NCBI GenBank assembly: GCA_036654455.1
Contig: JAVVRZ010000003.1
Span: forward strand, 1 to 64,000
Direction of reading: 5' to 3'
From: Clostridia bacterium
GTDB lineage: Bacteria; Bacillota; Clostridia; Christensenellales; CAG-314
Length of the DNA: 64,000 nt
How positions within the stretch are numbered: position 1 is the first letter of the stretch; every line of letters begins with the position of its first letter. The position numbers were made by a program, and so were the translations under genes. Below the pieces are notes generated by a model, which saw nothing but the letters and a program-made list of their open reading frames with translations, was not told where the DNA came from and made no database searches. Shown here in pieces: positions 2,216 to 53,160 of this stretch.

Positions 2216-5200
2216 TTAACAACTTCTAAGTAAATATAATTTATTTGAACTATCTATAAACCAAAGATTGCCCTTATACTCGTTTATTTTAAGCAACGGC
2301 GCAACTGCGTTTTTTATCTTTATATCGTTATAAAAGATTTCACCGTTTTTGCTAAGTAGAAGTTTGTCGCCCTGCGTGTAAATTTCGCCGTCGTTTTCAA
2401 TACTAGATACGGTTTTTGAGCCGTCTACTAAGTCAAGAATGGTAATTGCATTGTCGTCGCAAATATAGAAACACTTTTGCTTATAAAAGCACCAATATCT
2501 TTCTTTATTTCTATTTACAAGTATTTCATTCGTTTTATAAGCTACAAGCATTTGTTTACTATCAAGCGAATACAAAAATATACTGTTGAGATTGTCTACA
2601 AGCATAACTAAATTGCCGTCTTGCTGAGAATTACCTAAGCTATCCATTTGTATATTTCTTATTTCGCCACAAATACCATTAATACAGTCAATGGGTCGTT
2701 GATTATAATAGACTAAAACATTGTTATTTTCTAGTTGCAAAAACACAAAACCATTAAATTGATATATTTTTACAATTTTTATATCAGTTGTAAACAATTT
2801 TTTAACTTTGTCAAGAAAAATAGCCGTAAATGAGCCGTCGTCAAAGGCGGATAACAAGTTATGTCCGTCGTTTTCAAGCGCAAGCAGTTTTGCGGGATAG
2901 TCGAATTTAACTTTGTTATGGTCGATATCTATCACGCACAATTCGCCTTGAATATTTGCATAGTAGAGTTTGTCGTCAATAAAAGATACGGCGTCTGCGT
3001 TACCGTCCCAATCACAATCAAGATTAAACACAGCGTCTACGATTAAACAGTTAAAGTAAGCCTCTAAATCAATGGTTAAATTGCTATTTGCCAAAAACAT
3101 ACTATTAAGAAATTGATAGATAGGCAAAAACTCTCCGCCTATTAATAATTGTTGCTTTACTCTGGGCAAATAAAACAAATTAATCTCCATATCTTGATAA
3201 GGCGAAAAATTTGACTTTTGGTTTAATTCGCAAGCTCCTATTAAATAGCTTGCAATATAATTATTAAAGGCGGAAATATCGCTCTTAAATAAATCTAGAC
3301 TACTCGTTAAGGCTTTTCTTATATAAACTAAACTTTGCTTAGTTTGGGATAACCTTTGATTAAGACGAAAAATTCGGGCATTTGCAAGTTCTTCAATTTT
3401 TTGAGAGTAACCTTGTTTGTCGGTTGGAGTATTGTCATATAAAAAATTATTAAAATCATTAAAAACTTTTGCAAGACCGCACAAACGCATTTTATTGGTT
3501 ACAAAATAATAGTTTGTCAACAAACTTTGGTAAGGTATGGCTTGACATTGCTTTGTACGACTATTTAGGCAAAGCAAATGATAAGTTAATTCGTTAAAAG
3601 CGTTTGCATCTTTTCCTTTATATGTGGAATTTCCATCGACGTCTGCAAAGGAATTAAAAACTTTAAATAACAAATTATGATAAAGGGAGAAGTTTACGCT
3701 ATAACGACTTATACAAACTAATTTAAAAGAATGATAAAAAAAGTTGATTGTAATTCTATTAGTTATAAAGCCTCTACATTGTCTAACGATATAATTAATT
3801 GTGTCCTCTATTTGTAAAATAGAATATTGGTCTAAATTAAGTTTCATAGCTTGCGACATTTCTTTAATACTTAAACCATTTCTAGAAGCCGACAACAACC
3901 CAAAGAAAAGCGGTACGGCAACGTTAAACGGAATATCGCAATAATTTGCGTCATTTTCAAGTCTATTTAGCATTGAAGTAAAACAACTACTGATTGTATC
4001 GCCTAACTCGTAAAACTTATCTTTTAAAATTTGGTAAGAACCATACTGCCTTAACTCGTTTAAAGCAACTTTTAAAAACAAGGGGTTAACATTTTGACTG
4101 TTTACAATTTGTTCGATAAAATTATGGTCTAAACTTTTTAAATACTGATTTAAATAGTTGTTTATAAGCAATATCGTTTGGTTTTTATTAAGTTGATTAA
4201 TTGTTATTATATTTGAATTTAAACTTTCAAAAAACTCTTCCGTTTGCTCGTTTAACTTAAAACTATAAATAATCTTAACGTTTAGTTTGCTAAAAACGTA
4301 TTTCCATTGAGCAAAATTTTGGCTGATTTGGTCAAGTCCGTCAAAAACAAGCGTGATATTGCTCTCGCCATTTAAAAGTTTAGCGAAATAGTCAATAATT
4401 TCGTTAAGCTCAAACATTTCATCTTTGTAAGAATTAGGAAAAATTTGTTTGATTAAAGAAGTCAACACGCTCTCGATAGTAGACGAATTTGAGGAAATAC
4501 CCAAAAATCTATAATAAATATTGTGTTTTACCTTATTATTTATAATGTAGTTAGCAAGCAAAGTAGTTTTGCCCTGTCCCGCTTGCCCGATAACTGCAAG
4601 TAGCTTGTTGTCGCTATCAAAAAAGGCGTCTATTTGACTCTCGATATCTTGGCGTTTAATATAAGTTTGGCTGTTTTCGTATAAAAAATTGTCTTGTATG
4701 CTTAGCTCGTCCGCTTCATTTTCGGCGTTTGAAACAGTGTCAAGCTGATAGCTGTCAACGATAGCGTTCCAAAGTTGGTCGATTATAATTTGGCAAAGCG
4801 GAATTTCTTCTACCTTAAAAGAATCGAGTCGACCCTGCGTGTAGTCAAGCCCGCCTTGATTTAAATATGCAAATTCGGGAGTTAATTGCTTACGGTTCCA
4901 ACTTGCCGAATAACTTGTAACGTCGAATTTAGCTTTGATTTTTTGTTTAAAGTCTAGCAAGAGTTTGTCTTGCGTAAGTTCGTATTCGTTATCAAGATTA
5001 ATTTTATTTGTATAAATTGGTAAAAAATGGCTTGGCAAGCTATGTAAATAAGCATCTTGCCTAAAATAAAAAAATGCGTTTTTGTCTGCGCTAGATATTA
5101 TTTTATCAAGTACGGCTTGATTTACTTCCATTTCGGTTATTGATTCGTTTCTTGACAAATGTTTAAGCAAAATTTGGCTATCTATGCCGTCAAGCTCGCT

Positions 5201-5491
5201 CAAATTAACATCGTCTTTTTTAGGAACCCAACCTCGCCGTTGTCCTAAAAAGCACAAGAAAAAAGGCTTGCAAAAAGCAACATTTTTCAAACAAATTTCT
5301 ACCGTCTTTTTATTTTCGGTTGCATCTTTATAAGTTATGCCCCACCTTAAATCAATATCTTTAACATGCAGTTTATACTTTTCGCAACGTTGCGACAATT
5401 CGGGAATTACCCTTTTAATAAGGTAATCACGCTCGGCAAACATATCGTTAAAAGTGCTACTTATAAAAATGTAAACGTCTTTCCACTCCAT
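2216..5491 (-). CDS. DUF4062-STAND NTPase with propeller-like C-terminus
   Basis: A 1091-residue multidomain protein. Residues about 5-95 match the DUF4062 pattern (VYIFISSTFNDMFAERD, then DLRWGIT), an N-terminal module also known from TEP1/NWD1-type proteins. Residues about 270-480 form a P-loop NTPase: Walker A GQAGQGKTT at 302-310, a Walker B-like LVFDGLDQIS at 381-390, and NPLFL near 469, reminiscent of the STAND-family GxP region. The middle is helical. From about residue 780 to the end, short beta-rich segments recur (for example LLSAFDDGSF, NLWFIDSSNKLYLL), suggesting a degenerate beta-propeller sensor. There is no signal peptide or membrane helix. GGAGG precedes the ATG, and the gene has its own promoter and terminator. 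STAND proteins of this layout often act as ligand-triggered signalling or anti-phage switches. That role is inference here, and no effector domain is obvious. Confidence 0.8.
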   Translation of the reverse strand: MEWKDVYIFISSTFNDMFAERDYLIKRVIPELSQRCEKYKLHVKDIDLRWGITYKDATENKKTVEICLKNVAFCKPFFLCFLGQRRGWVPKKDDVNLSELDGIDSQILLKHLSRNESITEMEVNQAVLDKIISSADKNAFFYFRQDAYLHSLPSHFLPIYTNKINLDNEYELTQDKLLLDFKQKIKAKFDVTSYSASWNRKQLTPEFAYLNQGGLDYTQGRLDSFKVEEIPLCQIIIDQLWNAIVDSYQLDTVSNAENEADELSIQDNFLYENSQTYIKRQDIESQIDAFFDSDNKLLAVIGQAGQGKTTLLANYIINNKVKHNIYYRFLGISSNSSTIESVLTSLIKQIFPNSYKDEMFELNEIIDYFAKLLNGESNITLVFDGLDQISQNFAQWKYVFSKLNVKIIYSFKLNEQTEEFFESLNSNIITINQLNKNQTILLINNYLNQYLKSLDHNFIEQIVNSQNVNPLFLKVALNELRQYGSYQILKDKFYELGDTISSCFTSMLNRLENDANYCDIPFNVAVPLFFGLLSASRNGLSIKEMSQAMKLNLDQYSILQIEDTINYIVRQCRGFITNRITINFFYHSFKLVCISRYSVNFSLYHNLLFKVFNSFADVDGNSTYKGKDANAFNELTYHLLCLNSRTKQCQAIPYQSLLTNYYFVTNKMRLCGLAKVFNDFNNFLYDNTPTDKQGYSQKIEELANARIFRLNQRLSQTKQSLVYIRKALTSSLDLFKSDISAFNNYIASYLIGACELNQKSNFSPYQDMEINLFYLPRVKQQLLIGGEFLPIYQFLNSMFLANSNLTIDLEAYFNCLIVDAVFNLDCDWDGNADAVSFIDDKLYYANIQGELCVIDIDHNKVKFDYPAKLLALENDGHNLLSAFDDGSFTAIFLDKVKKLFTTDIKIVKIYQFNGFVFLQLENNNVLVYYNQRPIDCINGICGEIRNIQMDSLGNSQQDGNLVMLVDNLNSIFLYSLDSKQMLVAYKTNEILVNRNKERYWCFYKQKCFYICDDNAITILDLVDGSKTVSSIENDGEIYTQGDKLLLSKNGEIFYNDIKIKNAVAPLLKINEYKGNLWFIDSSNKLYLLRSC

Positions 5492-5641: not shown

Positions 5642-8188
5642 TTAAACTTTTGTCCACTTTGCGTAAACTCTTGTGTCATCTTTAAGAAAATAGATATTTT
5701 TAATTTTGTCGCCCGTACATTCGGCGTTATCAAACCAACCTTCAAATATATAGCCTTGTCTAGTAGGGTCAATTTCCAACTGTCCGTAGGGATTAGTTTG
5801 ACTAACTACAAAAGAAATAAGATACGTATTCTGGCTGTCAAAAGTGCAATCCATAACCGTAGTGCAAAAACCCTCAGCCGAATTAGCATTCCATCTAGCA
5901 AGCCAACCTTGGCTTGGTAGTTTGACATTTGCATAGATAACTAGCGAGTCGCACCCCGAAAAAGCGTCGTTCATAATATATTTAATTGTATTTGGTATTA
6001 AAATTCTTGTCAATTTATCACAGCTTGCAAGCGCACGTTCGGCTATTGCAAAAGCAGAAGCGTCCAAAACAAAATCTCCGCTTAACCTTTCGCCACGATA
6101 TCCTATTAGCCAGCCGTCAAGATAAACCGGCATATTGTTAGGTTGGCTATTCCACCAACCCGTACGCATAAATGCGTTGCTACCGACAATTTGGACTGAA
6201 CTAGGAATATTTATTAAAGTTACTCCGGTACAATTATGAAATGCTTCCTTACGAATTTCAATTAAAGTACCGCTTAGACTAATCTCGCCTACAAGACCGC
6301 TACAATTATCATAGGCAGATTGACCAATCTCTTTAATACAAGAAGACATATTAAGTTTGGTAAAGCCTGTACAATCCTGAAAAGCGCAATCTAACACGGC
6401 GGTAACGCTATTTGGTATAGTTAGTTCGCCGATAAGATTCTTACAGTTATAAAAGGCGTAAGCGCCGATACTTAAAATACCGTCGGGAAGCACTAATTTA
6501 CCGCTAAGCCCGGTACAATTAGAAAACAATCCGTCGCTAATTTTATCAATTTTAGTTGGTAAATCAACGCTTGTTAATTTCTCGCAGTTTGAAAAAGCAT
6601 TTGCCCCTAAAAAGGAAATTGAATTAGGTAAATCTAACTTTCCTTCTAGATTGACGCAATTTGCAAAGGCGCTAGTTCCTATCGTACTTATTTTATTATT
6701 CCAAATAATTGATTTGAGATTACCGCAGTTGAAAAATGCTCCTTCTCCAATGCAATCAAGATTACCGTTAAGTGTAATTACGTCATATCCGCAATATGAA
6801 AAAGTTCTTGCTAAAATCGCAGTAATTGAGGACGGAATAATTAACGTCCCATTTAAACTACTTGCCCTAGAAAAAGCTTCTTCTCCTAACTGTGTTAAAC
6901 CGTCGTGCAAAGACAAACTAGTTAAACTCGAACAGCTATAAAACGCTCTGTCGCCTATTTTTGTTATGTTTTTAGGAATTATCAGTTCGCCACTTAATTT
7001 AGTACAATTTTCAAATACTTTTGCTTTAATTTCAGTAATGGCGTTTGGTAATGTTACGCCAACAAGCGAAGAACACTTAGAGAACGCTCCCTCGCCAATA
7101 TCAATTAAAGAATTAGGCAAGATTAAATTGTTTGTAAGTCCGGAGCACTCTGCAAAAGCATATTTGCCAATGCTTATCAAGCCGTTAGGTAAGATTATAT
7201 TTGTAAAGTTAATGCCTTTGCCACTTTGATTTACGCAATGAAAGAAGGCGTAATCGCCAATTTTTGTAAAGTCGTCAGTAGTATTTGGAATAACACTACC
7301 CAAGCACCCAAGTATCAAAGTCTTTGAGTTAATGTCTATTAAACAATTACCTAAACTTTTATAAGCTAAGTTACCGCTATCGACTTCAATCGAAGTAAAT
7401 TGACAGTTAGTGAAGGCTCTCTCGCCTATATGTTTGACCGAGTTAGGAATAGTTAACTTGCCGGTTAATGTGGTACAGCTATAAAAAGCTTCGTCGGCAA
7501 TACCAACGGTACCGCTTTCTATTTCCAAACTGCCTATCGGCTTTTGGCTCTTGTAGCCAAGTAACCAATTATTTAAATAAACTATTCCCGTTTGTTGTCT
7601 ATCCCACCAACGTGTGTTGGTAAATATAAATTTGCCTAAGTGATTTAATTCGCTAGGTATAGAAACTTCAACGATATCTTTGTAACCGTCGAATGCTTGC
7701 GAAGCAATACTTACTACTTTTTGACCTTTCTCATTGATATAAGGCACGTATACTTCTTTGATTTTTTGGTCTTCTGCGCCAATTACTTCTACTCCGCCAT
7801 CTACTTCAACATAGGTTAAGCCCTTAGTGACAATAATATCTTCATAGTTATAGTCGCATTTAGCACAATGTTTTATATTGTGAGCTACGCCGTCGATTTC
7901 TTCATAGACCCAGTCAAGAGAAGAGTGTGTCGCTTCATTTGAGTAGTGTTCAATACATATTTGACATTTTAAATTACTTCCGTCGTGTTTAGCAAGGGGC
8001 AAAGCCTGCTTTTCGGTATGACCACAATCAACGCAAGAATGTTCTCTTTCGCCCTCTTTGGTACAAGTACTTTCACGTGTTGTAGTCCAACGACCATAGG
8101 AATGTTCGTGGTCGCTATTACAGCTAACTAAGCAGGTGGCAAATAAAAGTATGACTAGAATAAATATGCTAATTTTAACTTTTTTCAT
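5642..8188 (-). CDS. BspA-like leucine-rich-repeat surface lipoprotein
   Basis: An 848-residue exported protein. Residues 1-22 form a lipoprotein signal with lipobox LVSC (lipidated Cys23). A His/Cys-rich segment follows (about 25-85, with CVDCGH and CQIC pairs). Residues about 130-760 are many copies of the LRR_5 (BspA-type) repeat, for example LTIPNSVKHIGERAFTNC, with recurring IxxxAFxxCxxL. The last roughly 70 residues look like an InlB/Listeria-Bacteroides beta-grasp repeat (GYIFEGWF and VYAKWTKV). Such proteins sit on the outside of the membrane and are usually linked to adhesion or substrate binding. The ligand is unknown. An AAGGAGC site precedes the ATG. It is monocistronic with a strong promoter and terminator. 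Confidence 0.88.
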   Translation of the reverse strand: MKKVKISIFILVILLFATCLVSCNSDHEHSYGRWTTTRESTCTKEGEREHSCVDCGHTEKQALPLAKHDGSNLKCQICIEHYSNEATHSSLDWVYEEIDGVAHNIKHCAKCDYNYEDIIVTKGLTYVEVDGGVEVIGAEDQKIKEVYVPYINEKGQKVVSIASQAFDGYKDIVEVSIPSELNHLGKFIFTNTRWWDRQQTGIVYLNNWLLGYKSQKPIGSLEIESGTVGIADEAFYSCTTLTGKLTIPNSVKHIGERAFTNCQFTSIEVDSGNLAYKSLGNCLIDINSKTLILGCLGSVIPNTTDDFTKIGDYAFFHCVNQSGKGINFTNIILPNGLISIGKYAFAECSGLTNNLILPNSLIDIGEGAFSKCSSLVGVTLPNAITEIKAKVFENCTKLSGELIIPKNITKIGDRAFYSCSSLTSLSLHDGLTQLGEEAFSRASSLNGTLIIPSSITAILARTFSYCGYDVITLNGNLDCIGEGAFFNCGNLKSIIWNNKISTIGTSAFANCVNLEGKLDLPNSISFLGANAFSNCEKLTSVDLPTKIDKISDGLFSNCTGLSGKLVLPDGILSIGAYAFYNCKNLIGELTIPNSVTAVLDCAFQDCTGFTKLNMSSCIKEIGQSAYDNCSGLVGEISLSGTLIEIRKEAFHNCTGVTLINIPSSVQIVGSNAFMRTGWWNSQPNNMPVYLDGWLIGYRGERLSGDFVLDASAFAIAERALASCDKLTRILIPNTIKYIMNDAFSGCDSLVIYANVKLPSQGWLARWNANSAEGFCTTVMDCTFDSQNTYLISFVVSQTNPYGQLEIDPTRQGYIFEGWFDNAECTGDKIKNIYFLKDDTRVYAKWTKV

Positions 8189-8417: not shown

Positions 8418-10097
8418 TTATTCGATAGACATAATGTAATAATATAATGGTTGACCGCCAAAAAACATACAAAATTCGCAATCGGGGTAAGCTTCTTGTA
8501 ACTGTTCAAGAAGTTTGTTAGCTTCTTGTTCGGGAACATCGGCGCCGTAGTAAAGCGTGACTATCTCGTCGCTTTCCTTCTTCATCTTTTTAATTAAATC
8601 TTTAACAACTTCGCCCTTGTCTTTGCCCTTACAAACGATATTGCCCCTTTCGATGCCTATAATATCGCCTTGCGAAAGTTTAAGATTGTCTATTTGAGAA
8701 TTTCTAACCGCATAAGTAACGCTTGCATCTCTAACCGATACAATAGAACTGTTCATTTCGGCTAAAATCTCGGGTAGAGAACTGTCGGGGTTGTAGCTAA
8801 GCATAGCTGAAATACCCTGAGGAATATTTGAAGTTGGTATAACGTAAAGGTCTTTGTTGTTGATTAAACTTCTCGCTTGTTCTGCGGCTAAAACAATATT
8901 TTTGTTGTTGGGTAGAATGATAATGTTGTCGGCATTAATTTTACGAGCCGAAGACGCAATATCTTCTGCCGAAGGGTTCATTGTTTGTCCGCCGGACACA
9001 ATTTGGTCTACCAGCAAATCTTTAAAGATATTTGCAAAACCTTCGCCTGCGCAAATTGACAAAACGCCAATGGGTTTGCGTTCGGCTTCGAGCTTCTTTT
9101 TAAGCTCACGGTTCTGTTCAAGCATATTCTCAATTTTAACCCTGTCAAGCTCGCCTAATTGAAGGGCGTGAGCAAGCACTAAGCCGGGATTATTAGAGTG
9201 AACGTGAACTTTTATTAAATCAAGGTCGCCTACTACTACAACCGAGTCGCCTATTTCGTTAAAATACTCACGCATTTTGTCAATATTAGACAAAGTTGTC
9301 TTCTTGTAAATATTAATAATAAAGAATTCTGTACAATAGGCAAATTCTATTTCGTCTAAATTGTGATAATCTATAAATACGCCGTCGCTACCATCGTCAA
9401 AGCCTTTGCTCTGTATAACGTTGTTATCGGGAGAAGAAGTTTCTAGACCCTCTTCAATTTCTTGTCCAAGATAGCCCTTCAACATACCCCTAAATAAAAC
9501 GACTAAACCAAAACCGCCCGAGTCAACTACGCCGGCCTTTTTAAGCACATCAAGCATTTCGGGTGTTTGCGCCAAAATTTCTTCGCCACAAGAGATAAGT
9601 TTATTGAAAAAATCTTCAAAGTCATTTACAAATTTGCTTAGTTCAAGCGCCTTTTCGCTCATTACTCTAATTACGGTAAGCATTGTGCCTTCCCTAGGAC
9701 GAGAAACCGCCGAGTAAGCTAACTCTGTGCCTTTTTTCATAGCCTTAGCAAATATTCTTGTGTCTATTTCTTGCGACTCGGCTACAACAAGGCTAAAACC
9801 TTTGAGAATTTGTGATAGAATAACTCCGCTGTTACCCCTTGCGCCTTTAAGAGCGCCTTTGCTTACAATATCGCACACAATTTCCATTTTAGACCCGGCG
9901 TCAACGCTAAGTCCGTCAATAACCGATGCCATAGTTAGCGACATATTTGTGCCGGTGTCGCCGTCAGGCACGGGGAAAACGTTTAAGGAATCTATTTGAG
10001 CACGATTGAGTTTAATATTTTTTCCGCCGGCAATTAACATCTTTTTGAGTATTGGAGGCGTTATAATTTTGTTTGCGTTAAGTCTAGCTGCTACCAT
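8418..10097 (-). CDS. fakA: DAK2/DhaL-domain fatty acid kinase catalytic subunit (YloV)
   Basis: A 559-residue YloV/FakA family protein. FakA phosphorylates exogenous fatty acids bound to a FakB carrier, feeding phospholipid synthesis. The N-terminal DhaL-type ATP/Mg domain (about 1-200) is recognisable from FPVPDGDTGTNM and GARGNSGVILSQ. The middle and C-terminal domains follow, with length typical of the family. It is co-transcribed with yloU, 15 nt downstream of it, the same pair as in B. subtilis yloU-yloV. No FakB gene lies in the window. A strong terminator follows. Confidence 0.9.
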   Translation of the reverse strand: MVAARLNANKIITPPILKKMLIAGGKNIKLNRAQIDSLNVFPVPDGDTGTNMSLTMASVIDGLSVDAGSKMEIVCDIVSKGALKGARGNSGVILSQILKGFSLVVAESQEIDTRIFAKAMKKGTELAYSAVSRPREGTMLTVIRVMSEKALELSKFVNDFEDFFNKLISCGEEILAQTPEMLDVLKKAGVVDSGGFGLVVLFRGMLKGYLGQEIEEGLETSSPDNNVIQSKGFDDGSDGVFIDYHNLDEIEFAYCTEFFIINIYKKTTLSNIDKMREYFNEIGDSVVVVGDLDLIKVHVHSNNPGLVLAHALQLGELDRVKIENMLEQNRELKKKLEAERKPIGVLSICAGEGFANIFKDLLVDQIVSGGQTMNPSAEDIASSARKINADNIIILPNNKNIVLAAEQARSLINNKDLYVIPTSNIPQGISAMLSYNPDSSLPEILAEMNSSIVSVRDASVTYAVRNSQIDNLKLSQGDIIGIERGNIVCKGKDKGEVVKDLIKKMKKESDEIVTLYYGADVPEQEANKLLEQLQEAYPDCEFCMFFGGQPLYYYIMSIE

Positions 10098-10112: not shown

Positions 10113-10463
10113 TTACAATTTTACGCCAACGACGTGAACGTTGACTGTCTGTACAATCATACCAGAAAATTTTTCAAGTTCGTATTTGACTGTACTCTTT
10201 AAAGACTCGGCAACGGCGGAAATGGATATGCCATATCTAAACACGACAAAGAGGTCGACAAAAATTCTGTCGCCCTTAACTACCACTTTAACGCCTCTGC
10301 TCTTGTTATTAATTTTGAATAAATCTGCTAGGGTATCAGAAAAACGTGTAGGGACCATATCGACAACGCCGTAACAGTCTAAGGCATAATAACCAGCCAG
10401 TGACGCTATTACGTCGCTAGTTATGATAATAGCACCATAATAATTTTGGGTGCGTAGTGACAT
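10113..10463 (-). CDS. yloU: Asp23/Gls24 family protein (YloU)
   Basis: A 116-residue Asp23/Gls24 envelope-stress family protein, as found beside fakA in many Firmicutes. The role is not established; family members associate with the membrane. A longer frame begins 27 nt upstream (MNCKGGY...). I reject it because AAGGAGGG sits 8-9 nt before the ATG at 10463, and the best promoter (10494-10522) would start transcription at about the upstream ATG. The protein therefore starts MSLRTQNYYG. It is the first gene of the yloU-fakA operon. Confidence 0.88.
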   Translation of the reverse strand: MSLRTQNYYGAIIITSDVIASLAGYYALDCYGVVDMVPTRFSDTLADLFKINNKSRGVKVVVKGDRIFVDLFVVFRYGISISAVAESLKSTVKYELEKFSGMIVQTVNVHVVGVKL

Positions 10464-10493
10464 AGAACAGTACCCTCCTTTGCAGTTCATTCT

Positions 10494-10570: not shown

Positions 10571-10599
10571 TTGTCAAATTTAACGAATAATGCTATTAT
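10571..10599 (+). promoter_or_regulatory. promoter of rpmB
   Basis: TTGTCA, 17-nt spacer, TATTAT, about 45 nt before the rpmB start codon. It is divergent from the yloU promoter. Confidence 0.7.
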
Positions 10600-10642
10600 A
10601 CCTAAGGTCAATTCAAATAACAAACGGGAGGTGTACTCAATA

Positions 10643-10831
10643 ATGGCAAAAGTATGTGCTTTATGTGGCAAAAGCAAAATGTCTGGCAATCTTGTATCTC
10701 ACTCTAAACGCAAGACACCAAGGACTTATAGCGCTAATCTACAAAAGGTTAAATTAGAAATTGACGGCAAAGAATCTTCCGAATATGTTTGCACCCGTTG
10801 TTTAAGAACGTTGGACAAAGACGGAAAATAA
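10643..10831 (+). CDS. rpmB: 50S ribosomal protein L28
   Basis: A 62-residue L28 of the large ribosomal subunit. The start is the ATG at 10643 (MAKVCALCGKSK), with GGGAGGTG upstream. A longer in-frame start at 10571 lies inside the promoter and is rejected. It is the zinc-binding form, with CALC near the N-terminus and CTRC near the C-terminus. In B. subtilis rpmB lies between spoVM and yloU. Here it keeps that position and is read divergently from yloU. A terminator follows immediately. Confidence 0.95.
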   Translation: MAKVCALCGKSKMSGNLVSHSKRKTPRTYSANLQKVKLEIDGKESSEYVCTRCLRTLDKDGK

Positions 10832-12156: not shown

Positions 12157-12194
12157 AAAATACTAGTCATAACATTTGTTATGACTAGTATTTT
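12157..12194. terminator. bidirectional terminator between PAP2 and SpoVM-like genes
   Basis: A perfect 17-bp stem (AAAATACTAGTCATAAC and its complement) around a short loop. A-runs and T-runs flank both sides. It serves the PAP2 gene from the left and the small SpoVM-like gene from the right. Confidence 0.85.
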
Positions 12195-12196
12195 AA

Positions 12197-12277
12197 TTAC
12201 TTGCAAATATATTTTTTAAATATAAGTCTAAAAAAAGGTCTAAAAAATTTGGGCGGAACAAAACAAATTATCTTCAT
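12197..12277 (-). CDS. spoVM: SpoVM-like 26-residue sporulation peptide
   Basis: A 26-codon frame starting MKIICFVPPKFF and ending KKYICK. B. subtilis SpoVM, an amphipathic peptide that marks the convex forespore membrane and recruits the coat ATPase SpoIVA, is also 26 residues. A gapless alignment keeps Met1, Lys2, Pro9, Lys10, Phe11 and Arg17. Support here: AAGGAG 8 nt before the ATG, a terminator directly after the stop, and the exact syntenic place of spoVM between rpe and rpmB. A sporulation-type -10 lies upstream and the rpe operon terminator is behind it. The peptide is strongly basic and aromatic. Identity rests on position, length and a short motif, so it remains a well-supported inference. 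Confidence 0.75.
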   Translation of the reverse strand: MKIICFVPPKFFRPFFRLIFKKYICK

Positions 12278-12300
12278 AAATACTCCTTAATGTTTTTCTT

Positions 12301-12309
12301 TATTATATG
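12301..12309 (-). promoter_or_regulatory. possible mother-cell sigma (SigE/SigK) -10 for the SpoVM-like gene
   Basis: On the minus strand CATATAATA fits the CATA-NNN-TA form of sporulation sigma-K -10 elements and the CATA core of sigma-E. It lies 24 nt before the start codon and after the rpe terminator. No sigma-A -35 sits at 17 nt; the nearest TTGTAA is about 20 nt away. AT-rich chance matches are possible. Confidence 0.4.
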
Positions 12310-12323
12310 TTTATTAAAATAAA

Positions 12324-12351
12324 AGTGTTACAAAAATTAACTTGTAACACT
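12324..12351 (-). terminator. terminator of the rpe operon
   Basis: AGTGTTACAA pairs with TTGTAACACT. On the minus strand it is followed by TTTATTTT, about 40 nt past the rpe stop. It separates the housekeeping operon from the SpoVM-like gene. Confidence 0.8.
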
Positions 12352-12390: not shown

Positions 12391-13032
12391 TTATATTTTT
12401 CTTAGGTCGATTATACTCTTTGCCCTATCGTTTGACTTAAATATTGCGCTACCCGCAACTAAACAATTTGCGCCCGCCTTAATTACTTCGGCAGAATTTT
12501 TTTGGCTTATGCCACCGTCAACTTCAAGCAAAATATTGCGGTCGCCTATTAAATTTCTAGCTTGTTTAATTTTTTCTAAGCTACCGTCAATAAAGCCTTG
12601 CCCACCAAAACCCGGCTCGACACTCATAATAAGAATTAAGTCGACTAAATCTAAATAGGGTTTTATTGCCTCTACCGGCGTATTTGGTTTGATTGATAGA
12701 CCGGCTTTTGCGCCGTTATTGCGAATAAGTTGAAGCGTTTCTTTAACGCAACCGCACGCTTCTAAATGAATGGTAACAATATCTGCGCCCGAAGAAATAA
12801 ATAGCTCGACATATTTTTCGGGATTAATTATCATAAGATGTACGTCTAGAACATTTTCGCATACTTTGTTAATATCGTTGATAAATTTAATGCCAAAAGT
12901 AATGTTAGGGACAAACACACCGTCCATAACGTCGCAATGCAACATATCAGCGCCGTTTGCCGTCAATTCCTGCGCCTCTTTGCCAATATTAGCAAAGTCA
13001 AACGACAGTAACGACGGAGAAATATAAATCAT
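12391..13032 (-). CDS. rpe: ribulose-phosphate 3-epimerase
   Basis: A 213-residue TIM-barrel epimerase interconverting ribulose-5-P and xylulose-5-P in the pentose phosphate pathway. The metal and active-site motifs are present: HCDVMDGVFVPNITFG, DVHLMI and LEVDGGI. The length is normal. It is the last gene of the long leftward operon and is followed by a terminator. In B. subtilis rpe also follows rsgA (cpgA); here a glutamine amidotransferase gene is inserted between them. Confidence 0.95.
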   Translation of the reverse strand: MIYISPSLLSFDFANIGKEAQELTANGADMLHCDVMDGVFVPNITFGIKFINDINKVCENVLDVHLMIINPEKYVELFISSGADIVTIHLEACGCVKETLQLIRNNGAKAGLSIKPNTPVEAIKPYLDLVDLILIMSVEPGFGGQGFIDGSLEKIKQARNLIGDRNILLEVDGGISQKNSAEVIKAGANCLVAGSAIFKSNDRAKSIIDLRKI

Positions 13033-45594: not shown

Positions 45595-47337
45595 TTACTT
45601 AATAGGCTTTGCCGTATAGTGGGTGTGCAATAGTTCGTGCGACTTATGAGAGTTGGGTTCGCCTAAAAATTCCTTATAAATTTCGATTATTTCGGGATTT
45701 TCGTGACTCTTTCTAGCTAAGCTCTTTTTGTCGGTGTCGTAAATTGCCTTTGCCCTAACTGCCCTAACGTCAATTTTGTCCCAGACATTTTCGGGTTGGA
45801 TAGGTTGACCGCCACCGGTTACGCAACCGCCCGGACAACACATAACTTCTATAAAGTGATAATCGCTAATTTTGCCGGCTTTAAGTTCTTCAAGAATAAG
45901 GTGAGCATTCTCAATACCATTAGTTACGGCTACCTTAACGTCAACGCCTGCTACTTTAACGGTTGCTCTCTTAATGCCTTCTGTGCCTCTTACTGCCTTA
46001 AAATCAAGCTTTTCAAGAGGTTTTTTCTCTAAAACTTCGCTTACTGTACGTAAAGCTGCCTCCATAACACCGCCCGTTGCTCCAAATAATAGACCGGCTT
46101 CGCTACCGTGACCGATTAAAGAATCAAAGTCGCCTTCGGGTAGTTCGGCAAAGTCAATACCGCAACGACGAATCATACGAGCAAGTTCACGAGTGGTAAT
46201 TGTAGCGTCTAAGTCTCTTATGCCCTCGGCATTCTGCATTTCGGGACGAGCAATTTCAACTTTCTTAGCTACGCAAGGCATAACGGTTACTGCAAAAATT
46301 TTGCGAGGGTCGATGTTGTGCTTTTCGGCGTAGTAAGTTTTTACAAGAGCGCCTGCCATCATTTGAGGACTCTTGCAAGTTGATAGATGCGGTAATAATT
46401 CGGGATAGTATTGTTCGATATAATTTATCCAGCCGGGAGAACACGAAGTAAACATAGGTAGAACTCCGCCCTTAGTAAGTCTGTTGATAAACTCTGTGCC
46501 TTCTTCCATAATTGTAAGGTCGGCTGCAAAGTCAATGTCAAGAACAGAATCAACGCCAAGTCTACGCATAGCCGTAACAAGTTTGCCTTGTTGATTTGTG
46601 CCAACGGGATAACCAAATTCTTCGCCGATTGCTACTCTTACGGCTGGGGCTGGCATCATAACTACGTGAATATCTTTGTTGGCAATAGCCGAAAAAACTT
46701 TGTCGGTGTCATCTTTTTCACGCAAAGCGCCTGTTGGACAAACCGTAATACATTGTCCGCAAGCTACGCAACCGACCTTGTCTAAGTCTTCGCCAAAGAA
46801 TGTGCCTATATGAGTGTTAAAACCACGCTCGTTTGCGCCGATTACAGAAACGTGTTGACGAGATTTGCACATAGCTACGCAACGACGACAAAGAATACAC
46901 TTAGAATTGTCTCTAATTAAATACGGCGTAACTTCAACTTCGCCCTTAGTCTTTGCGCCATCAAAACGATTAGCGTCACAATTATATTCTTGCGAGAGTC
47001 TTTGAAGTTGGCAGTTTTGGCTCTTCACGCAACTGTTGCAATCGTTGTTGTGGTTAGAGAGCATTAATTCTAGCGTAGTCTTGCGACTATCTAAAACTTT
47101 GTTTGTGTGAGTGAAAATTTCCATATTGGGAGTTGCTGGCAGAACGCAAGCGGCTTGCAGTCCACGCATATTCTTAACTTCAACAACACAAATACGGCAA
47201 GCGCCGAGAGGATTAAGGTCTTTAAAATAGCACAATGTAGGAATATTAACGCCTACGTGACGGCACGCCTGTAAAACCGTGCTACCCTCGGGTACTTCAT
47301 ATTGAATATTATCAATTTTTAAGGTAATTGTTTTCAT
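45595..47337 (-). CDS. hydA: [FeFe] hydrogenase catalytic subunit (HydA/HndD-type)
   Basis: A 580-residue NADH-linked hydrogenase. The N-terminal 2Fe-2S domain has Cys36, 47, 50 and 64. A His-Cys cluster lies near HNNDCNSCVKSQNC. Two 4Fe-4S sites are CILCRRCVAMC and CVACGQCITVCP. The H-cluster motifs are TSCSPGW (L1), MPCVAK (L2) and MCCPGGCVTGGGQP (L3). L1 has Ser where CpI of C. pasteurianum has the second Cys; I believe this is frequent in NAD-dependent enzymes but could not check. With the 595- and 166-residue subunits it forms a HydABC-type complex that probably evolves H2 from NADH and ferredoxin. It is last in a ten-gene operon. Confidence 0.95.
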   Translation of the reverse strand: MKTITLKIDNIQYEVPEGSTVLQACRHVGVNIPTLCYFKDLNPLGACRICVVEVKNMRGLQAACVLPATPNMEIFTHTNKVLDSRKTTLELMLSNHNNDCNSCVKSQNCQLQRLSQEYNCDANRFDGAKTKGEVEVTPYLIRDNSKCILCRRCVAMCKSRQHVSVIGANERGFNTHIGTFFGEDLDKVGCVACGQCITVCPTGALREKDDTDKVFSAIANKDIHVVMMPAPAVRVAIGEEFGYPVGTNQQGKLVTAMRRLGVDSVLDIDFAADLTIMEEGTEFINRLTKGGVLPMFTSCSPGWINYIEQYYPELLPHLSTCKSPQMMAGALVKTYYAEKHNIDPRKIFAVTVMPCVAKKVEIARPEMQNAEGIRDLDATITTRELARMIRRCGIDFAELPEGDFDSLIGHGSEAGLLFGATGGVMEAALRTVSEVLEKKPLEKLDFKAVRGTEGIKRATVKVAGVDVKVAVTNGIENAHLILEELKAGKISDYHFIEVMCCPGGCVTGGGQPIQPENVWDKIDVRAVRAKAIYDTDKKSLARKSHENPEIIEIYKEFLGEPNSHKSHELLHTHYTAKPIK

Positions 47338-47349
47338 TTATTTTTCTCC

Positions 47350-49137
47350 TTACTTCTTGTAAATTGCGCCCTTAGGACACTTAGCGGCGCATAAACCGCA
47401 CTTGATGCACTTAGTTACGTCTAGGGTGTGAACTTTCTTAACTTCGCCCGAGATTGCTTTAACTGGGCAATTTCTTGCGCACAAAGTACAACCGATACAT
47501 TTCTCGGGGTCAATGTGGAAGTTAATAAGAGCTTTGCACACGCCGGCAGGACAAACTTTGTCAACTATATGAGAAACATATTCGTCTCTAAAATATCTTA
47601 ATGTTGATAGTACGGGGTTAGCCGCAGTCTTGCCCAAAGCGCATAGAGCGGTATCTGCCATATATTCGGCGAGCGACTCCATTTTGTCAAGGTCTTCCAT
47701 TGTAGCCGTACCCTTAGTAACCTTAGTGAGCATTTCAAGCAGTCTTTTTGTGCCGATACGACAAGAAGTACATTTACCGCAAGATTCGTCAACGATAAAT
47801 TCTAGGTAGAACTTAGCGATGTCGACCATACAGTTGTCTTCGTCCATAATAATCATACCGCCACTACCCATCATTGAACCCATCTCGATAAGTTTGTCAT
47901 ATTCGATTGGTATATCTAGGTGAGCCGCAGGGATACAACCGCCCGAAGGTCCGCCTGTTTGAACTGCCTTAAATTTCTTACCGTTACGGATACCTCCGCC
48001 TATCTCATAAATTACCTCTCTAAGCGTAGTGCCCATAGGAATTTCTACTAGACCAGTGTTAACAATTTTACCGCCGATTGCAAATACTTTTGTGCCACGA
48101 GAACGTTCTGTCCCCATTGTCTTAAACCAATCTGCGCCCTTATTTATAATTTGAGCGATATTTGCATAAGTTTCTACGTTATTTAATATTGTGGGCTTAG
48201 CAAAAAGACCTTTAACGGCTGGGAAAGGCGGGCGTACTCTGGGTTCGCCACGATTACCTTCGATTGAAGTCATTAAGGCTGTTTCTTCGCCACATACAAA
48301 TGCGCCTGCGCCTAATTTAATGTCTAGGTCAAAGCAAAATGAAGTGCCAAAGATATTGTTGCCTAGCAAGCCATATTCTTTTGCGTCGGCTATTGCCTTT
48401 TTAAGTCTTTTAACCGCTATTGGATATTCTGCACGAATATAAACAAAACCTTGACTTGAACCGATAGCGTAGCCTGCGATTGCCATAGCCTCGATTACGC
48501 AGTGAGGGTCGCCTTCAAGAATTGACCTGTCCATAAATGCGCCCGGGTCGCCTTCGTCGGCGTTACAACAAACATATTTAACGGGATTATCTTGTAAATA
48601 TGCAAATTCCCACTTCTTGCCTGTGGGGAAACCGCCACCGCCACGACCACGCAAACCGCTATCTTTGATAACATTGATAACTTCTTCTTTGGTCATTTCG
48701 GTTAAAACCTTGCCTAAGGCTTGATAACCGTCGTGAGCGATGTATTCTTCGATATTTTCGGGGTCAATTACGCCACAGTTGCGTAGCGCAACCCTTACTT
48801 GCTTCTTTAAAAATTCGGTTTGACTTAAAGAAAGGACTTGTTCCTTAGTGTCGTCCTCAGTATGAAGCAATCTCTTGACAATTCTACCCTTAATAATATG
48901 CTCGGCGACAATTTCTTTTACGTCGGCAACCGTGATTGAGTGGTAGAACGCTCCCTCGGGATAAACTACCATAATTGGACCCTTAGCGCAAAGACCGAAA
49001 CAACCAGTCATAATAACTTTGACTTCTTCTTCAAGCTTATTAGCCTTAATTTCAGCGTTTAGCGCATCGATAATTTCGTGTGAGTGGTTAGAGGTACAAC
49101 CTGTGCCACCACAAACTAGTATGTAAGACCTTATCAT
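47350..49137 (-). CDS. hydB: NADH-binding hydrogenase subunit (HydB/HndC, NuoF-like)
   Basis: A 595-residue flavoprotein. A thioredoxin-like 2Fe-2S domain (VCGGTGCTS, then TGCFGLCAKGP) comes first. The NuoF core with FMN/NADH motif GRGGGGFPTG (about 172-181) follows, then the 4Fe-4S site SCGKCTSCRIG near 475. Two C-terminal ferredoxin motifs (CIGCTLCARNCP and CIKCGLCAAKCP) end the protein. It passes electrons between NADH, ferredoxin and HydA. It lies 12 nt from hydA. Confidence 0.95.
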   Translation of the reverse strand: MIRSYILVCGGTGCTSNHSHEIIDALNAEIKANKLEEEVKVIMTGCFGLCAKGPIMVVYPEGAFYHSITVADVKEIVAEHIIKGRIVKRLLHTEDDTKEQVLSLSQTEFLKKQVRVALRNCGVIDPENIEEYIAHDGYQALGKVLTEMTKEEVINVIKDSGLRGRGGGGFPTGKKWEFAYLQDNPVKYVCCNADEGDPGAFMDRSILEGDPHCVIEAMAIAGYAIGSSQGFVYIRAEYPIAVKRLKKAIADAKEYGLLGNNIFGTSFCFDLDIKLGAGAFVCGEETALMTSIEGNRGEPRVRPPFPAVKGLFAKPTILNNVETYANIAQIINKGADWFKTMGTERSRGTKVFAIGGKIVNTGLVEIPMGTTLREVIYEIGGGIRNGKKFKAVQTGGPSGGCIPAAHLDIPIEYDKLIEMGSMMGSGGMIIMDEDNCMVDIAKFYLEFIVDESCGKCTSCRIGTKRLLEMLTKVTKGTATMEDLDKMESLAEYMADTALCALGKTAANPVLSTLRYFRDEYVSHIVDKVCPAGVCKALINFHIDPEKCIGCTLCARNCPVKAISGEVKKVHTLDVTKCIKCGLCAAKCPKGAIYKK

Positions 49138-49150
49138 TTTTCTCCTCCGT

Positions 49151-49516
49151 TTATACTAAATTTATATATTCTTTTACTGGGTTGCCATTGACTAGATGCT
49201 CGGTGACAATTCTGGCAACTTTTTCGGGAGTAACCAACACATAAGTAACTTTTTCTTTGTTGGGCATAAACACTTCTACGATAGGCTCGTATTTGCACAT
49301 ACCTATACAGCCGGTTTGGCTGACAATAACATTTTTAAGGTTGCGTTTAGCTACCTCGGCAATTAATTCGTTTAATACTGGTCTTGCGCCTGCCGCTATA
49401 CCGCAAGTTGCCATACCAACAACAACTCGGGTTGTTTCTTCGCCGACATTTTGACGATTAAGCCCCATATTAAGCACTTTTTCTTTGATTGCGTTAAGCT
49501 CTTGTAAAGATTTCAT
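49151..49516 (-). CDS. HndB-like (2Fe-2S) thioredoxin-fold protein
   Basis: 121 residues. A thioredoxin-like ferredoxin with cysteines in GMATCGIAAGA and SQTGCIGMCKYEP. It resembles HndB of the four-subunit NADP-reducing hydrogenase of Desulfovibrio, here in addition to the three HydABC-type subunits. Its start overlaps the preceding GHKL gene by 4 nt. Confidence 0.85.
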   Translation of the reverse strand: MKSLQELNAIKEKVLNMGLNRQNVGEETTRVVVGMATCGIAAGARPVLNELIAEVAKRNLKNVIVSQTGCIGMCKYEPIVEVFMPNKEKVTYVLVTPEKVARIVTEHLVNGNPVKEYINLV

Positions 49517-50070
49517 AAAATCTCATATCCTCCATTTGTCTTATTTATATTCTCTAAAATATAATTACTAATAAATTGCGTCACTTCGGGTTGAACTATT
49601 GATACTTCGCCTAGCATTTCTTTAATTTCTAAGGTGCTAAATATAAACTCCTGTTTATTTACTCTGTAAGTAAATAGGTAGTTAATATTCTGGTTTGCTT
49701 GAATTAACAAACTAATAGTCGAAGCAAGGTCGCCCATAGGCATACGGTCAATATTGTTTATTTCAAAGGTAGCCGTAATAGTCGTGCCAAAGCCTACCTT
49801 AGAGGTAATGTTAAAACTGCCGTTTGACTGCAAGGCCGAAAGCTTAAATAGTGGTATTCCTAAGCCGACTTTGCGAGTTGTGCGAGTTGTGGTAAAAGGG
49901 TCACAAACCTTAGCTATAAACTCTTGACTCATACCGCAACCATTGTCGGTAATTACTAGGGTAAGCAAATTGACGCTAAAATTATAATCTACCACAATAT
50001 CAATTTGAGTTGAACCCGCTGTAATTGAGTTGTTGACTATATCTAATATATTTAGTGATAATTCTTTCAT
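49513..50070 (-). CDS. GHKL ATPase-domain protein
   Basis: 185 residues of a histidine-kinase-like ATPase fold, without a sensor or phosphoacceptor domain. An N box-like ILDIVNNSITAGST is followed by TDNGCGM (G1) and GLGIPLF (G2). Such stand-alone ATPases recur in clostridial [FeFe]-hydrogenase operons. It could act as a regulatory kinase. It overlaps both neighbours by 4 nt (ATGA-type), suggesting tight stoichiometry. Confidence 0.8.
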   Translation of the reverse strand: MKELSLNILDIVNNSITAGSTQIDIVVDYNFSVNLLTLVITDNGCGMSQEFIAKVCDPFTTTRTTRKVGLGIPLFKLSALQSNGSFNITSKVGFGTTITATFEINNIDRMPMGDLASTISLLIQANQNINYLFTYRVNKQEFIFSTLEIKEMLGEVSIVQPEVTQFISNYILENINKTNGGYEIL

Positions 50071-50783
50071 AATTTGTTTGGTCTAACCGACAGCATATTA
50101 ATTAAGTTGGTCTTTGACAAACTGTCAAGTTCGATATAACTGCTAAATCTAACTAACGCCTCGATATTATGAGCGTCGCTGTCGCAAATGATGTTATATT
50201 TGCCACGATATTGTTCTATCAAACTAGCCGGACAAACAGACGACACTTCAAGAGTAGTTACGTTGAGGTCTGGCGGAAGGCTACCCAGTACGGACAATAC
50301 GCTAAAACTATCTCGGTCTATGTGAGCTGGAATTGCAACCCCGCCTAACTTTGACACCTCGTCTACGAGTTCAAAAATATCGTAACAAGTCGCAACGTTA
50401 AGCAAATCGTCGTATTGTTTAACGACGTTGTCGTCTTTATCTAATACAAGTTGCTTGTTGTAAAAAGAGGTGTTAAGCGGATATTTTGGTATTTGCTGAT
50501 AAATACGCTTAAATAAATCTAACCCTTGCTTATATGTTCTAAAAAGACATAGAACGTGTATTTCTTCGCTAGTAGTAACTTCCATAGCCGGAATTGTAAC
50601 TATGCCATACTGTCTTGCATACGCTTCTAACGCAGGGTAATTCTCGATTGCGTTATGGTCGGCAAGAGCGATAATTTGGGTATCCAGAAGATGGCTCATA
50701 TTGACAATATTTGAAATTGTATTATCTTCTTCTGCGCAACCGCTCAATACCGAATGAATATGTAAATCAGCCTTTATTTGCAT
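50067..50783 (-). CDS. PHP-domain metal phosphoesterase
   Basis: 238 residues. PHP motifs: ADLHIHSVLSGC (metal His), ALADHNAIENYP, PAMEVTTSEEIHVL and a C-terminal ICDSDAHN. Probably a small-molecule phosphatase. The substrate is unknown, but the hydrogenase-operon setting suggests a regulatory nucleotide. The ATG at 50783 is preferred (GTGGAG 8 nt upstream); a longer frame to 50798 is rejected. It overlaps the upstream DRTGG gene by 17 nt. Confidence 0.82.
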   Translation of the reverse strand: MQIKADLHIHSVLSGCAEEDNTISNIVNMSHLLDTQIIALADHNAIENYPALEAYARQYGIVTIPAMEVTTSEEIHVLCLFRTYKQGLDLFKRIYQQIPKYPLNTSFYNKQLVLDKDDNVVKQYDDLLNVATCYDIFELVDEVSKLGGVAIPAHIDRDSFSVLSVLGSLPPDLNVTTLEVSSVCPASLIEQYRGKYNIICDSDAHNIEALVRFSSYIELDSLSKTNLINMLSVRPNKL

Positions 50784-51123
50784 TGATATACTCCACAATT
50801 AGTCTAGCCGAATCAAATGATGTTAACTTTGTGCCGAGTATGCAAATATTCTGGGTTTGCGCCCTTTCAAGTAGAACAGCGTCGGGTATAACCGAATCGC
50901 AAAGCAACACACAACTACATTCGGTAAGCTTAGCAACCGCAAGTACATTGACGTTAGACATAATTGTTAGCCAACAACAATTTGTTTGAGCTTTGCCCAT
51001 TACAAAGCTAAGTAAGTCCCCTATGTAGAAGTTTGTAACCGAACAAGTTTCGCCCGGAACATAAGTCGTAGCCGAAACAATACTGGCTATATCTCTATTA
51101 GTAAGGGGTATATTATTTGTCAT
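50767..51123 (-). CDS. DRTGG-like domain protein (second copy)
   Basis: 118 residues, a paralogue in pattern of the DRTGG protein at 52802-53146. DRTGG-like domains are thought to be ligand-binding regulatory modules. It is cytoplasmic. Its start overlaps the sensory-hydrogenase gene end by 11 nt. The ligand is unknown. Confidence 0.7.
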   Translation of the reverse strand: MTNNIPLTNRDIASIVSATTYVPGETCSVTNFYIGDLLSFVMGKAQTNCCWLTIMSNVNVLAVAKLTECSCVLLCDSVIPDAVLLERAQTQNICILGTKLTSFDSARLIVEYINANKG

Positions 51124-52363
51124 TTTTAAGCCTCATCATAACGCATTGTTTAATGTCGACTAGACCCTGCACTACGTCTTCGGCAAAAGAACGGCAGTTA
51201 GGCGAACCGCATACGCCACAATCTAATCTAGGCAAACAATTAAGAACTTTTTCGAGGTGTTCCATCTTATCCATAGCTACGGTTATGTCGCTATCTAGCT
51301 TGTACACGTCCTTAGTTTGCCATTCCCAAGAGTCTTGGTAATATTCTACGGGCTTATCTAATCTATCGCACGAATTTGTCTTATTTAATAAAGTAGTCTT
51401 GCGCAAAGTGTGAATTTTGCTCTTAGCGATAAAAGTATTGATAACGTTAAACACTCCGCCTACGCAACCGCTGTGACAAGCGTGTAATTCGACAAAGTCA
51501 ATATTTTCTAATTTGCCGTCTTCTAGCTCACGCAAAATTGAAATGCAGTTGTCAATGCCGTCAGCCGCAAGTTGACGAGTGTTAGGAAAACTTGCCGCTT
51601 CGCCTCCGCTAGTCGACCAAGCTATGCCGTTGCTTGACGCTTTAAGCCTTTGCTTGATAACTACGTCGTCTTTATCTACCTTTTGCAAACGTTTGCAAAC
51701 TTCTGACACGCTTAACGCCCCAGAAAGTTCGGGTACGCTTGAATAAAAACCATCGATTATAGCTTGCGCTTTTGCCGGGCAAGGAGAAATGTAGAATACG
51801 CCGATTTCGCTGTCGGGTAAACCGCTAAGCTCTCTCGCTTCGGCTCGGGCTTCCTTTGCGGCAAGCACAAGAGGCGGTAAATGAGTTACTAAATTATCTT
51901 TTAAACATTGATATTTTGTTAAAATAAGTTCTACGCAAGCCGGGCAAACAGTTGAAATTGCCGGAGTCTTGCAGTCGCCCATAATAAAGGTTTCACGTTT
52001 GATTAAGGACAATAAGTCTGAGGCACGAGCAGTTTCGTAAACGTGGTCAAAACCTATGTTATATAAACCATTAAGGATTAAATCTGGGTCGTCTAAGTGA
52101 GGAAATTGAGCAAATAAGCACGAAGGCGCAAGCGCAACGTTAAATTTATAATTGCCTAGCGTATCAAAACCGTCGCATTGGGCGGAAATGGCGTGAGAAG
52201 GGCAAGCTCTAACGCAATTACCACAAGAAATACACTTGTCATAATTGATTGACGCTTTACCTTGACGAACTCTTATTGCTTGGGTTGGGCATTTCTTCAT
52301 ACAGTTAGTACAGCCCACACACTTAGCGGTGTCTAATTGAATTGACTTAAACCCCTTAGTCAT
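51113..52363 (-). CDS. sensory-type [FeFe] hydrogenase-like protein
   Basis: About 416 residues. Two N-terminal 4Fe-4S motifs (CVGCTNCMKKCP and CISCGNCVRACP) precede a shortened hydrogenase core. The C-terminal Fe-S domain has CGVCGSPNCRSFAEDV. The H-cluster loops are degenerate: STVCPACVEL for L1, SPCPAK for L2, ELHACHSGCVGG for L3. The ligand cysteines could remain, but the first Cys of the usual TSCC (the proton donor) is replaced and L3 lacks GGGQP. This fits an H2 or redox sensor rather than a turnover enzyme. The start is set at ATG 52363 (AGGTGG upstream); an in-frame GTG at 52372 would add three residues. Confidence 0.82.
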   Translation of the reverse strand: MTKGFKSIQLDTAKCVGCTNCMKKCPTQAIRVRQGKASINYDKCISCGNCVRACPSHAISAQCDGFDTLGNYKFNVALAPSCLFAQFPHLDDPDLILNGLYNIGFDHVYETARASDLLSLIKRETFIMGDCKTPAISTVCPACVELILTKYQCLKDNLVTHLPPLVLAAKEARAEARELSGLPDSEIGVFYISPCPAKAQAIIDGFYSSVPELSGALSVSEVCKRLQKVDKDDVVIKQRLKASSNGIAWSTSGGEAASFPNTRQLAADGIDNCISILRELEDGKLENIDFVELHACHSGCVGGVFNVINTFIAKSKIHTLRKTTLLNKTNSCDRLDKPVEYYQDSWEWQTKDVYKLDSDITVAMDKMEHLEKVLNCLPRLDCGVCGSPNCRSFAEDVVQGLVDIKQCVMMRLKNDK

Positions 52364-52382
52364 ATTGTCCACCTAATAAAAA

Positions 52383-52805
52383 TTACATTTTGAATGTCAT
52401 TGTTATGGTAGTGCCTACGCCTACCGTTGATTGAATATCCATAGAATCGCTATATTTTTTCATATTTGGCAGTCCCATACCTGCGCCAAAACCTAATTCT
52501 CGTATCTGCGAAGTAGCGGTTGAATAACCTTCCTTCATCGCTAGTTCGATATTTTCTATGCCCTTGCCGGTGTCGGCAAGCGTAACGGTAATAACGCTAG
52601 GGTCCATTGTAACAATAGCGTAACCGCCGTTTGCGTGGATAACCATATTTATTTCGCCCTCGTACATAGCTATTACCACACGGCGAATTGTTTCGTCGGC
52701 AATACCTAGTTGTTTAAGCCTAGATTTAATCTGTTGAGAGGCGTGACCGGCAAGGTCAAAATTACTGCCGTCTACCTCAAACTTCCACTCTATATTTGGC
52801 ATCAC
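52383..52805 (-). CDS. RsbW-like GHKL ATPase / anti-sigma-type kinase
   Basis: 140 residues of an HATPase_c fold. VVIAMYEGEINMVIHANGG is the N box, VTLADTGKGI the G1 box and LGFGAGMGLPNMKKYSD the G2 box. It resembles serine kinases of the RsbW/SpoIIAB group. In this operon it may phosphorylate a regulator. It overlaps the DRTGG gene by 4 nt. Confidence 0.8.
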   Translation of the reverse strand: MMPNIEWKFEVDGSNFDLAGHASQQIKSRLKQLGIADETIRRVVIAMYEGEINMVIHANGGYAIVTMDPSVITVTLADTGKGIENIELAMKEGYSTATSQIRELGFGAGMGLPNMKKYSDSMDIQSTVGVGTTITMTFKM

Positions 52806-53146
52806 ATACCACCTATTATGCCGGCGGAATAGAGCTTACCGCAAGCGGTAAACATTTTCTCTTTGGTTGTAAGCAAAATTATGTTGTTTTCTTTGGCTAG
52901 TTGAATGGTCTTGTCGTCGGGCAACTTGCCACGAACAAAACAAACGCATTTCATATCCATCATAAGAGCAGTTCTAACTACTTGCGGATTGGCTAGCCCG
53001 GTAAGAAGAACAGCTTGGTCTTTGACCATAGCAAGCACGTCGGACATCATATCGCTACCGCAAGCCGATACGATGTTAGTATCAAGTAAATCTTCTCCGT
53101 TTAGCACATCTGCGCTCAATAAAGTTGCTACTTCTCTTATAGTCAT
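52802..53146 (-). CDS. DRTGG-domain protein (first copy)
   Basis: 114 residues starting MTIREVATLLSADVLNG, a DRTGG-like fold with MVKDQAVLLTGL and CVCFVRGKLPDDKTIQLAKEN. Function unknown; DRTGG domains accompany CBS domains and hydrogenase genes elsewhere. It is the second gene of the operon, 14 nt after the NuoE-like subunit. Confidence 0.75.
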   Translation of the reverse strand: MTIREVATLLSADVLNGEDLLDTNIVSACGSDMMSDVLAMVKDQAVLLTGLANPQVVRTALMMDMKCVCFVRGKLPDDKTIQLAKENNIILLTTKEKMFTACGKLYSAGIIGGM

Positions 53147-53160
53147 AACTACTTACTTCC

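Follow-up and report, generated by a model that had tools for sequence, protein, structure and literature searches.

We identified an unannotated 26-codon gene on the minus strand of the window (the whole 64,000-nt stretch of DNA analysed here). It is a genuine gene, almost certainly a diverged spoVM of an uncultured Clostridia-like member that forms spores or did so until recently. The ORF runs from an ATG at 12277 to a TAA ending at 12197 and encodes a 26 amino acid product, MKIICFVPPKFFRPFFRLIFKKYICK; on the plus strand the same interval reads as an unrelated translation. A sequence-only reading had picked out this ORF correctly, leaving its strand unstated, and its account of the flanking signals also stands: AAGGAG is present and ends 5 nt before the ATG, with an SD-like site preceding 41 of 49 spoVM genes of relatives, and a terminator follows the stop codon directly. 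The latter is a perfect 17-bp hairpin (-20.9 kcal/mol) with a T run on both strands, common to spoVM and a convergent gene of the PAP2 family (Table 1).

Table 1 Features of the spoVM locus in the window
Feature	Coordinates	Strand	Basis
spoVM CDS, product MKIICFVPPKFFRPFFRLIFKKYICK	12197..12277	-	only profile match in genome; conserved post-rpe position
Shine-Dalgarno AAGGAG, 5 nt before ATG	12283..12288	-	sequence
Predicted -10 element CATATAAT, sigE/sigK type CATAnAnT, 32 nt before ATG	12302..12309	-	
Predicted -35 element GTAACACTT, order consensus GTAACnTTT	12323..12331	-	conserved columns, fixed CATA distance
Bidirectional terminator, convergent spoVM/PAP2 gene	12157..12194	.	17-bp perfect stem, z -7.5
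rpe intrinsic terminator hairpin	12324..12351	-	11 pairs plus T tail; z -3.2
rpe, ribulose-phosphate 3-epimerase, upstream neighbour	12391..13032	-	
PAP2-family membrane phosphatase, 365 aa	11013..12110	+	PF01569 E 1e-21
rpmB, ribosomal protein L28	10643..10831	+	TIGR00009, residues 25-80 of ORF 10571-10831
yloU, Asp23 family	10113..10490	-	PF03780 E 9e-27
yloV-like (DAK-type) gene	8418..10097	-	position and sequence only

The genomic position is that of spoVM, whose location near rpmB is a known conserved trait (PMC5607322). The rpe stop codon (12391) lies 113 nt upstream and rpmB (L28 match E 4e-18), yloU and yloV follow beyond, as had been read from the sequence; the PAP2-family gene that separates spoVM from rpmB had gone unmentioned. 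Other genes of the window include a full catalase gene (506-2005, minus), present alongside a large cluster of the [FeFe]-hydrogenase/NADH-dehydrogenase-like kind that typifies anaerobes (45595-53661, minus). A 1091-aa STAND-type NTPase (2216-5491, minus) with an N-terminal DUF4062 and a NACHT/NB-ARC ATPase had no match in PADLOC and is possibly an unclassified defence or signalling protein. The gene at 5642-8188 (minus) encodes an 848-aa lipoprotein-like surface protein that has BspA-type leucine-rich repeats and a Listeria-Bacteroides repeat, and that at 59388-59882 (minus) a 164-aa protein which consists almost entirely of Asp/Glu in its C-terminal third and had no Pfam match.

The sequence-only reading had drawn its identification from six residues shared with B. 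subtilis SpoVM (M1, K2, P9, K10, F11 and R17). These identities are correct, the B. subtilis sequence having been checked against PDB 2MVH, but do not amount to proof: six identities occur in 6.6% of composition-matched shuffles of the window peptide (P 0.066), and other short ORFs of the window score 6-8. We therefore set aside the pairwise comparison with B. subtilis SpoVM, 6/26 being within chance without intermediates. Neither NCBIfam SpoVM model (NF033436, NF011327) matched the window peptide, nor did a Pfam search, and the suggestion that length cut-offs caused the gene to be missed is thus only half of the explanation, as both NCBIfam models also fail on the peptide itself.

Homology could be established through intermediates. 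Profile A1, built from the peptides of 35 relatives with the window left out, gave a single match in the whole of its own genome, the window ORF (E 8.5e-5). When the closest relative was also excluded the ORF scored E 4.2e-5 among the 1412 short-ORF readings of the window, the next best scoring 0.08. The profile search that had been proposed as a check thus recovers the ORF with a profile of relatives rather than with the NCBIfam models. With E 0.1 as the limit, profile A1 matched 53 of 61 relatives; for most of them E was no higher than 1e-8, and with few exceptions the matches adjoin rpe. NF033436, an independent curated model, matches the same post-rpe spot in about 20 relatives, which ties the post-rpe peptides of the order to B. 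subtilis SpoVM; the chain therefore runs from NF033436 to the order's peptides after rpe, to profile A1 and to the window ORF. The best NF033436 score in the genome scan was 29.6 bits, below the cut-off of 31, and with peptides scored alone relatives at the same position reached 31.0 and 30.7 bits, indicating that the model does not reach widely enough to cover this lineage. We took its cut-off as a matter of annotation and not as a biological feature that defines SpoVM.

Conservation was assessed in 61 genomes of the same family and order by reading the DNA downstream of rpe, which was located in 60 of them. In one genome the rpe frame is broken by an in-frame TAA (G034:C52:8851-9477), a possible assembly error or pseudogene. 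Most genomes carry a small post-rpe ORF of the form M-K-I-x-C-h-K-x-P-K/R-h-h-x-x-h-h-R/K-h-h, so that the frame, whose conservation had been put forward as decisive, is found downstream of rpe in most close relatives. Every one of the 35 aligned relatives has both Pro9 and Cys5. The peptides of G007 (MRILCFNPPRFLKPLLRLIFRRLICK) and G054 (MKIICIKPPKIIRGILRLIFRKQLN) resemble that of the window in post-rpe position, SD, Cys5 and Pro9, and G007, the closest relative, has the same promoter and 15 of 26 residues identical. Comparison with G007 over the 26 codons gave a dN of 0.30 and a dS of 2.6, a dN/dS of about 0.12 which is approximate because dS is near saturation. In one species-rich genus of the family the peptide is extended by two residues at its N-terminus (MKSKIFCFKLP...) and has a longer tail. 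The window peptide is the most divergent member, with Val7 in place of the Lys or Asn found in nearly all relatives, and with Phe6 and Phe15; it nonetheless combines the rpe/rpmB surroundings with the 26-aa length and Pro9 that characterise SpoVM.

These data bear on the simplest alternative, that a chance ORF downstream of rpe happens to resemble SpoVM. An ORF of 26 codons is short, its B. subtilis identities are equalled by other ORFs of the window and the NCBIfam models do not match it. The leave-out profile nevertheless singles it out both in the window and genome-wide, its position, SD and promoter are shared by dozens of relatives, and it is under purifying selection. We consider chance resemblance to be refuted for practical purposes, because frame, position and promoter are conserved in relatives.

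The gene has its own predicted promoter of the mother-cell sigma type directly upstream. The motif CATANNNT lies ≤46 nt from the start codon in 36 of 48 genes (window included), against 1.65 expected from shuffles. Once the genes were aligned on CATANNNT, GTAACnTTT appeared at a fixed upstream distance although it had not itself been selected for, giving an order-wide pattern of GTAACnTTT…GCATATAATG. In the aligned promoters there is an A at -19 in 31/36 and a C at -18 in 26/36, and a G directly precedes CATA in 27/36. In B. subtilis the -10 consensus is KCATANANTN for sigE and GCATANNNTA for sigK (PMC3416734). The spoVM -10 element fits both, and the -35 element, which is overlapped by the 3′ arm of the rpe terminator hairpin, is intermediate, its AC being sigK-like and its trailing TTT sigE-like; we therefore call the promoter mother-cell type and leave sigE versus sigK unchosen. 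When upstream regions were scanned one at a time by strict B. subtilis-style sigE criteria, the signal was only weakly significant per gene, becoming clear once relatives were combined. A sigma-A promoter (GTAACA-18-TATAAT, 10/12) is disfavoured, since sequences of relatives such as GCATATACTG, GCATATATTG and GCATACAATG retain CATA and lose TATAAT. Ahead of spoIVA the same GTAAC/CATA promoter was not recovered, with loose sigE-like matches only, in some genomes. The C. difficile spoVM is under sigE control and that of B. subtilis also requires SpoIIID (PMC5607322).

The host genome (1.37 Mb, 95% complete) encodes Spo0A, SpoIIGA, sigE, sigK, sigG, YlmC, SpoVAD and a full-length SpoIVA of 487 aa (Pfam E 4e-111; TIGR02836 629 bits). 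The spoIVA, spo0A, sigE and sigK genes that the sequence-only reading had asked for are thus all present. Across the 61 genomes SpoVM is present in 50 of the 55 with sigE and in one of the six without it (Fisher p 2e-4), and in none of the four that lack both SpoIVA and sigE; the co-occurrence p-values (2e-4, 4e-4) are indicative only, as the genomes are related and not independent samples. The correspondence has exceptions in both directions. Five relatives have SpoVM and no detected SpoIVA, three of them <77% complete (G005 and G006 are not), and five SpoIVA- and sigE-positive genomes among the 61 had no detectable SpoVM.

Type I toxin-like and membrane-stress peptides are also short, basic and hydrophobic. 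On composition the window ORF could accordingly be a small amphipathic peptide of this kind, unrelated to sporulation. We regard this as very improbable, given that the curated SpoVM model recognises this locus in relatives, Pro9 is invariant, the promoter is of mother-cell type and the gene is absent together with SpoIVA and sigE.

That the organism is a spore-former or descends from one, as the sequence-only reading had proposed, is plausible from these genes, with one qualification that the reading did not foresee. Neither alpha/beta SASP (PF00269) nor the GPR protease (PF03418) was detected in 37 genomes of the family (own and 36 relatives), which nonetheless keeps coat, sigma-factor and DPA-uptake genes. 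In other families of the order GPR was found in 18 genomes and SASP in 7. As several genomes with GPR likewise gave no SASP match, PF00269 has low sensitivity here; with GPR missing as well, true SASP loss in the family is likely, not certain, and diverged SASP/GPR replacements below model sensitivity are possible. This suggests that the proteins which usually protect spore DNA play no part in the family's sporulation or have replacements diverged beyond detection, and any spores the family forms may be unusual.

The same observation raises the prospect that spoVM is a relic here, sporulation no longer being completed or the engulfment programme serving a purpose other than dormancy. The absence of PF00269 and PF03418 hits from all 37 family genomes, the small genome and the unusual Val7 and Phe6 of the window copy would fit such a reading. 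We hold it to be rather unlikely, however, since the frame is under purifying selection and the forespore DPA-uptake gene spoVAD, sigE, sigK, sigG and full-length SpoIVA are intact. Epulopiscium, a known case of repurposed sporulation, moreover shows the opposite gene pattern, keeping SASP and GPR and losing nearly all DPA genes (PMC3416734).

Taking the peptide as a functional SpoVM, it comprises a short N-terminal strand, a kink at Pro9 and a basic amphipathic helix of residues 10-23. The helix has a hydrophobic moment of 0.70 (0.49 in B. subtilis), a value reached by 4% of shuffles, and the net charge is +7. Pro9 is the sole residue conserved across all SpoVMs (PMC5607322). In B. subtilis the amphipathic helix inserts into the convex outer forespore membrane (PMC5607322), Pro9 is required for curvature recognition and Ile6 for SpoIVA binding near Gly486 (PMC5607322; PMC7911427). 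By analogy, the window peptide would enter the outer forespore membrane, which is positively curved, and would use the N-terminal stretch near residue 6 to recruit the genome's own SpoIVA, which would start the basement layer of the coat. The analysis shows the gene, its conservation and promoter sequence, the amphipathic pattern of its product and its co-occurrence with sporulation genes; expression in the mother cell, the sensing of curvature, the binding of SpoIVA and the initiation of the coat are inferred for the window peptide, and the simplest reading is that it may do the same job as B. subtilis SpoVM, marking the forespore and recruiting SpoIVA. An essential role should not be assumed, as SpoVM is largely dispensable in C. 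difficile (PMC5607322).

Cys5 distinguishes the SpoVMs of this order. It adjoins position 6, the SpoIVA contact in B. subtilis, and is invariant in about 50 genomes (35/35 aligned and others read), whereas elsewhere in the class (about 30 SpoVMs) the readable residue at position 5 is Val, Ala or Thr and never Cys. The SpoIVA of B. subtilis has a single cysteine, C98 (PMC4396682). All eight complete SpoIVAs of the order have an extra cysteine four residues from the C-terminus, near the Gly486 contact region (Cys484 in the own SpoIVA). A disulfide or other thiol bond between Cys5 and Cys484 could conceivably lock the coat basement layer in a SASP-free sporulation programme, a proposal that we regard as distinctly unlikely. 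Treating Cys5 and Cys484 as order-specific covariation was weakened by two Oscillospiraceae SpoIVAs, from plasmid records, that also end in CIIL, indicating that this cysteine of SpoIVA predates the order or extends beyond it. No SpoIVA was found in solved structures or in viral contigs. Plasmid-labelled records that carry spoIVA are NZ_AP023421.1 (pMM59_01 of Pusillibacter faecalis, 504 kb, typed as conjugative; locus 180080-184552), where spoIIIAA and spoIIIAB follow spoIVA, and OY725841.1 of Subdoligranulum variabile; they represent either off-chromosome sporulation genes or mislabelled replicons.

SpoVM is rarely annotated, and Galperin et al. 2012 asked about distant clostridial versions where searches had failed (PMC3533761). 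Here a whole order (the window and roughly 50 relatives) carries a diverged SpoVM that is missed by current models and can be found by position plus promoter, providing a ready profile and a strong genomic sporulation marker for uncultured lineages. As a surprise this is modest. What gives it value is that SpoVM now extends to an order missed by the models, together with the observations on Cys5 and SASP/GPR, which make variation in coat anchoring and spore DNA protection without SASP testable.

Compared with known systems, the window gene shares with B. subtilis SpoVM (PDB 2MVH/2MVJ; NF033436, NF011327) the length of 26 aa, the rpe/rpmB neighbourhood, a SpoIVA in the genome, the residues Met1, Lys2, Pro9, Lys10, Phe11 and Arg17, and a proline kink followed by a basic amphipathic helix. 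It differs in being identical at only 6/26 positions, with Cys5 in place of Thr5, Phe6 in place of Ile6 and Val7-Pro8 in place of Lys7-Leu8, in lacking Gly13-Gly14, and in the PAP2 gene inserted before rpmB. The C. difficile SpoVM, to which it is likened by description, is a small SpoIVA-binding peptide encoded near rpmB and transcribed by sigE (PMC5607322). There spoVM shares a transcript with CD25622 (PMC5607322), whereas the window gene has its own predicted promoter directly after the rpe terminator.
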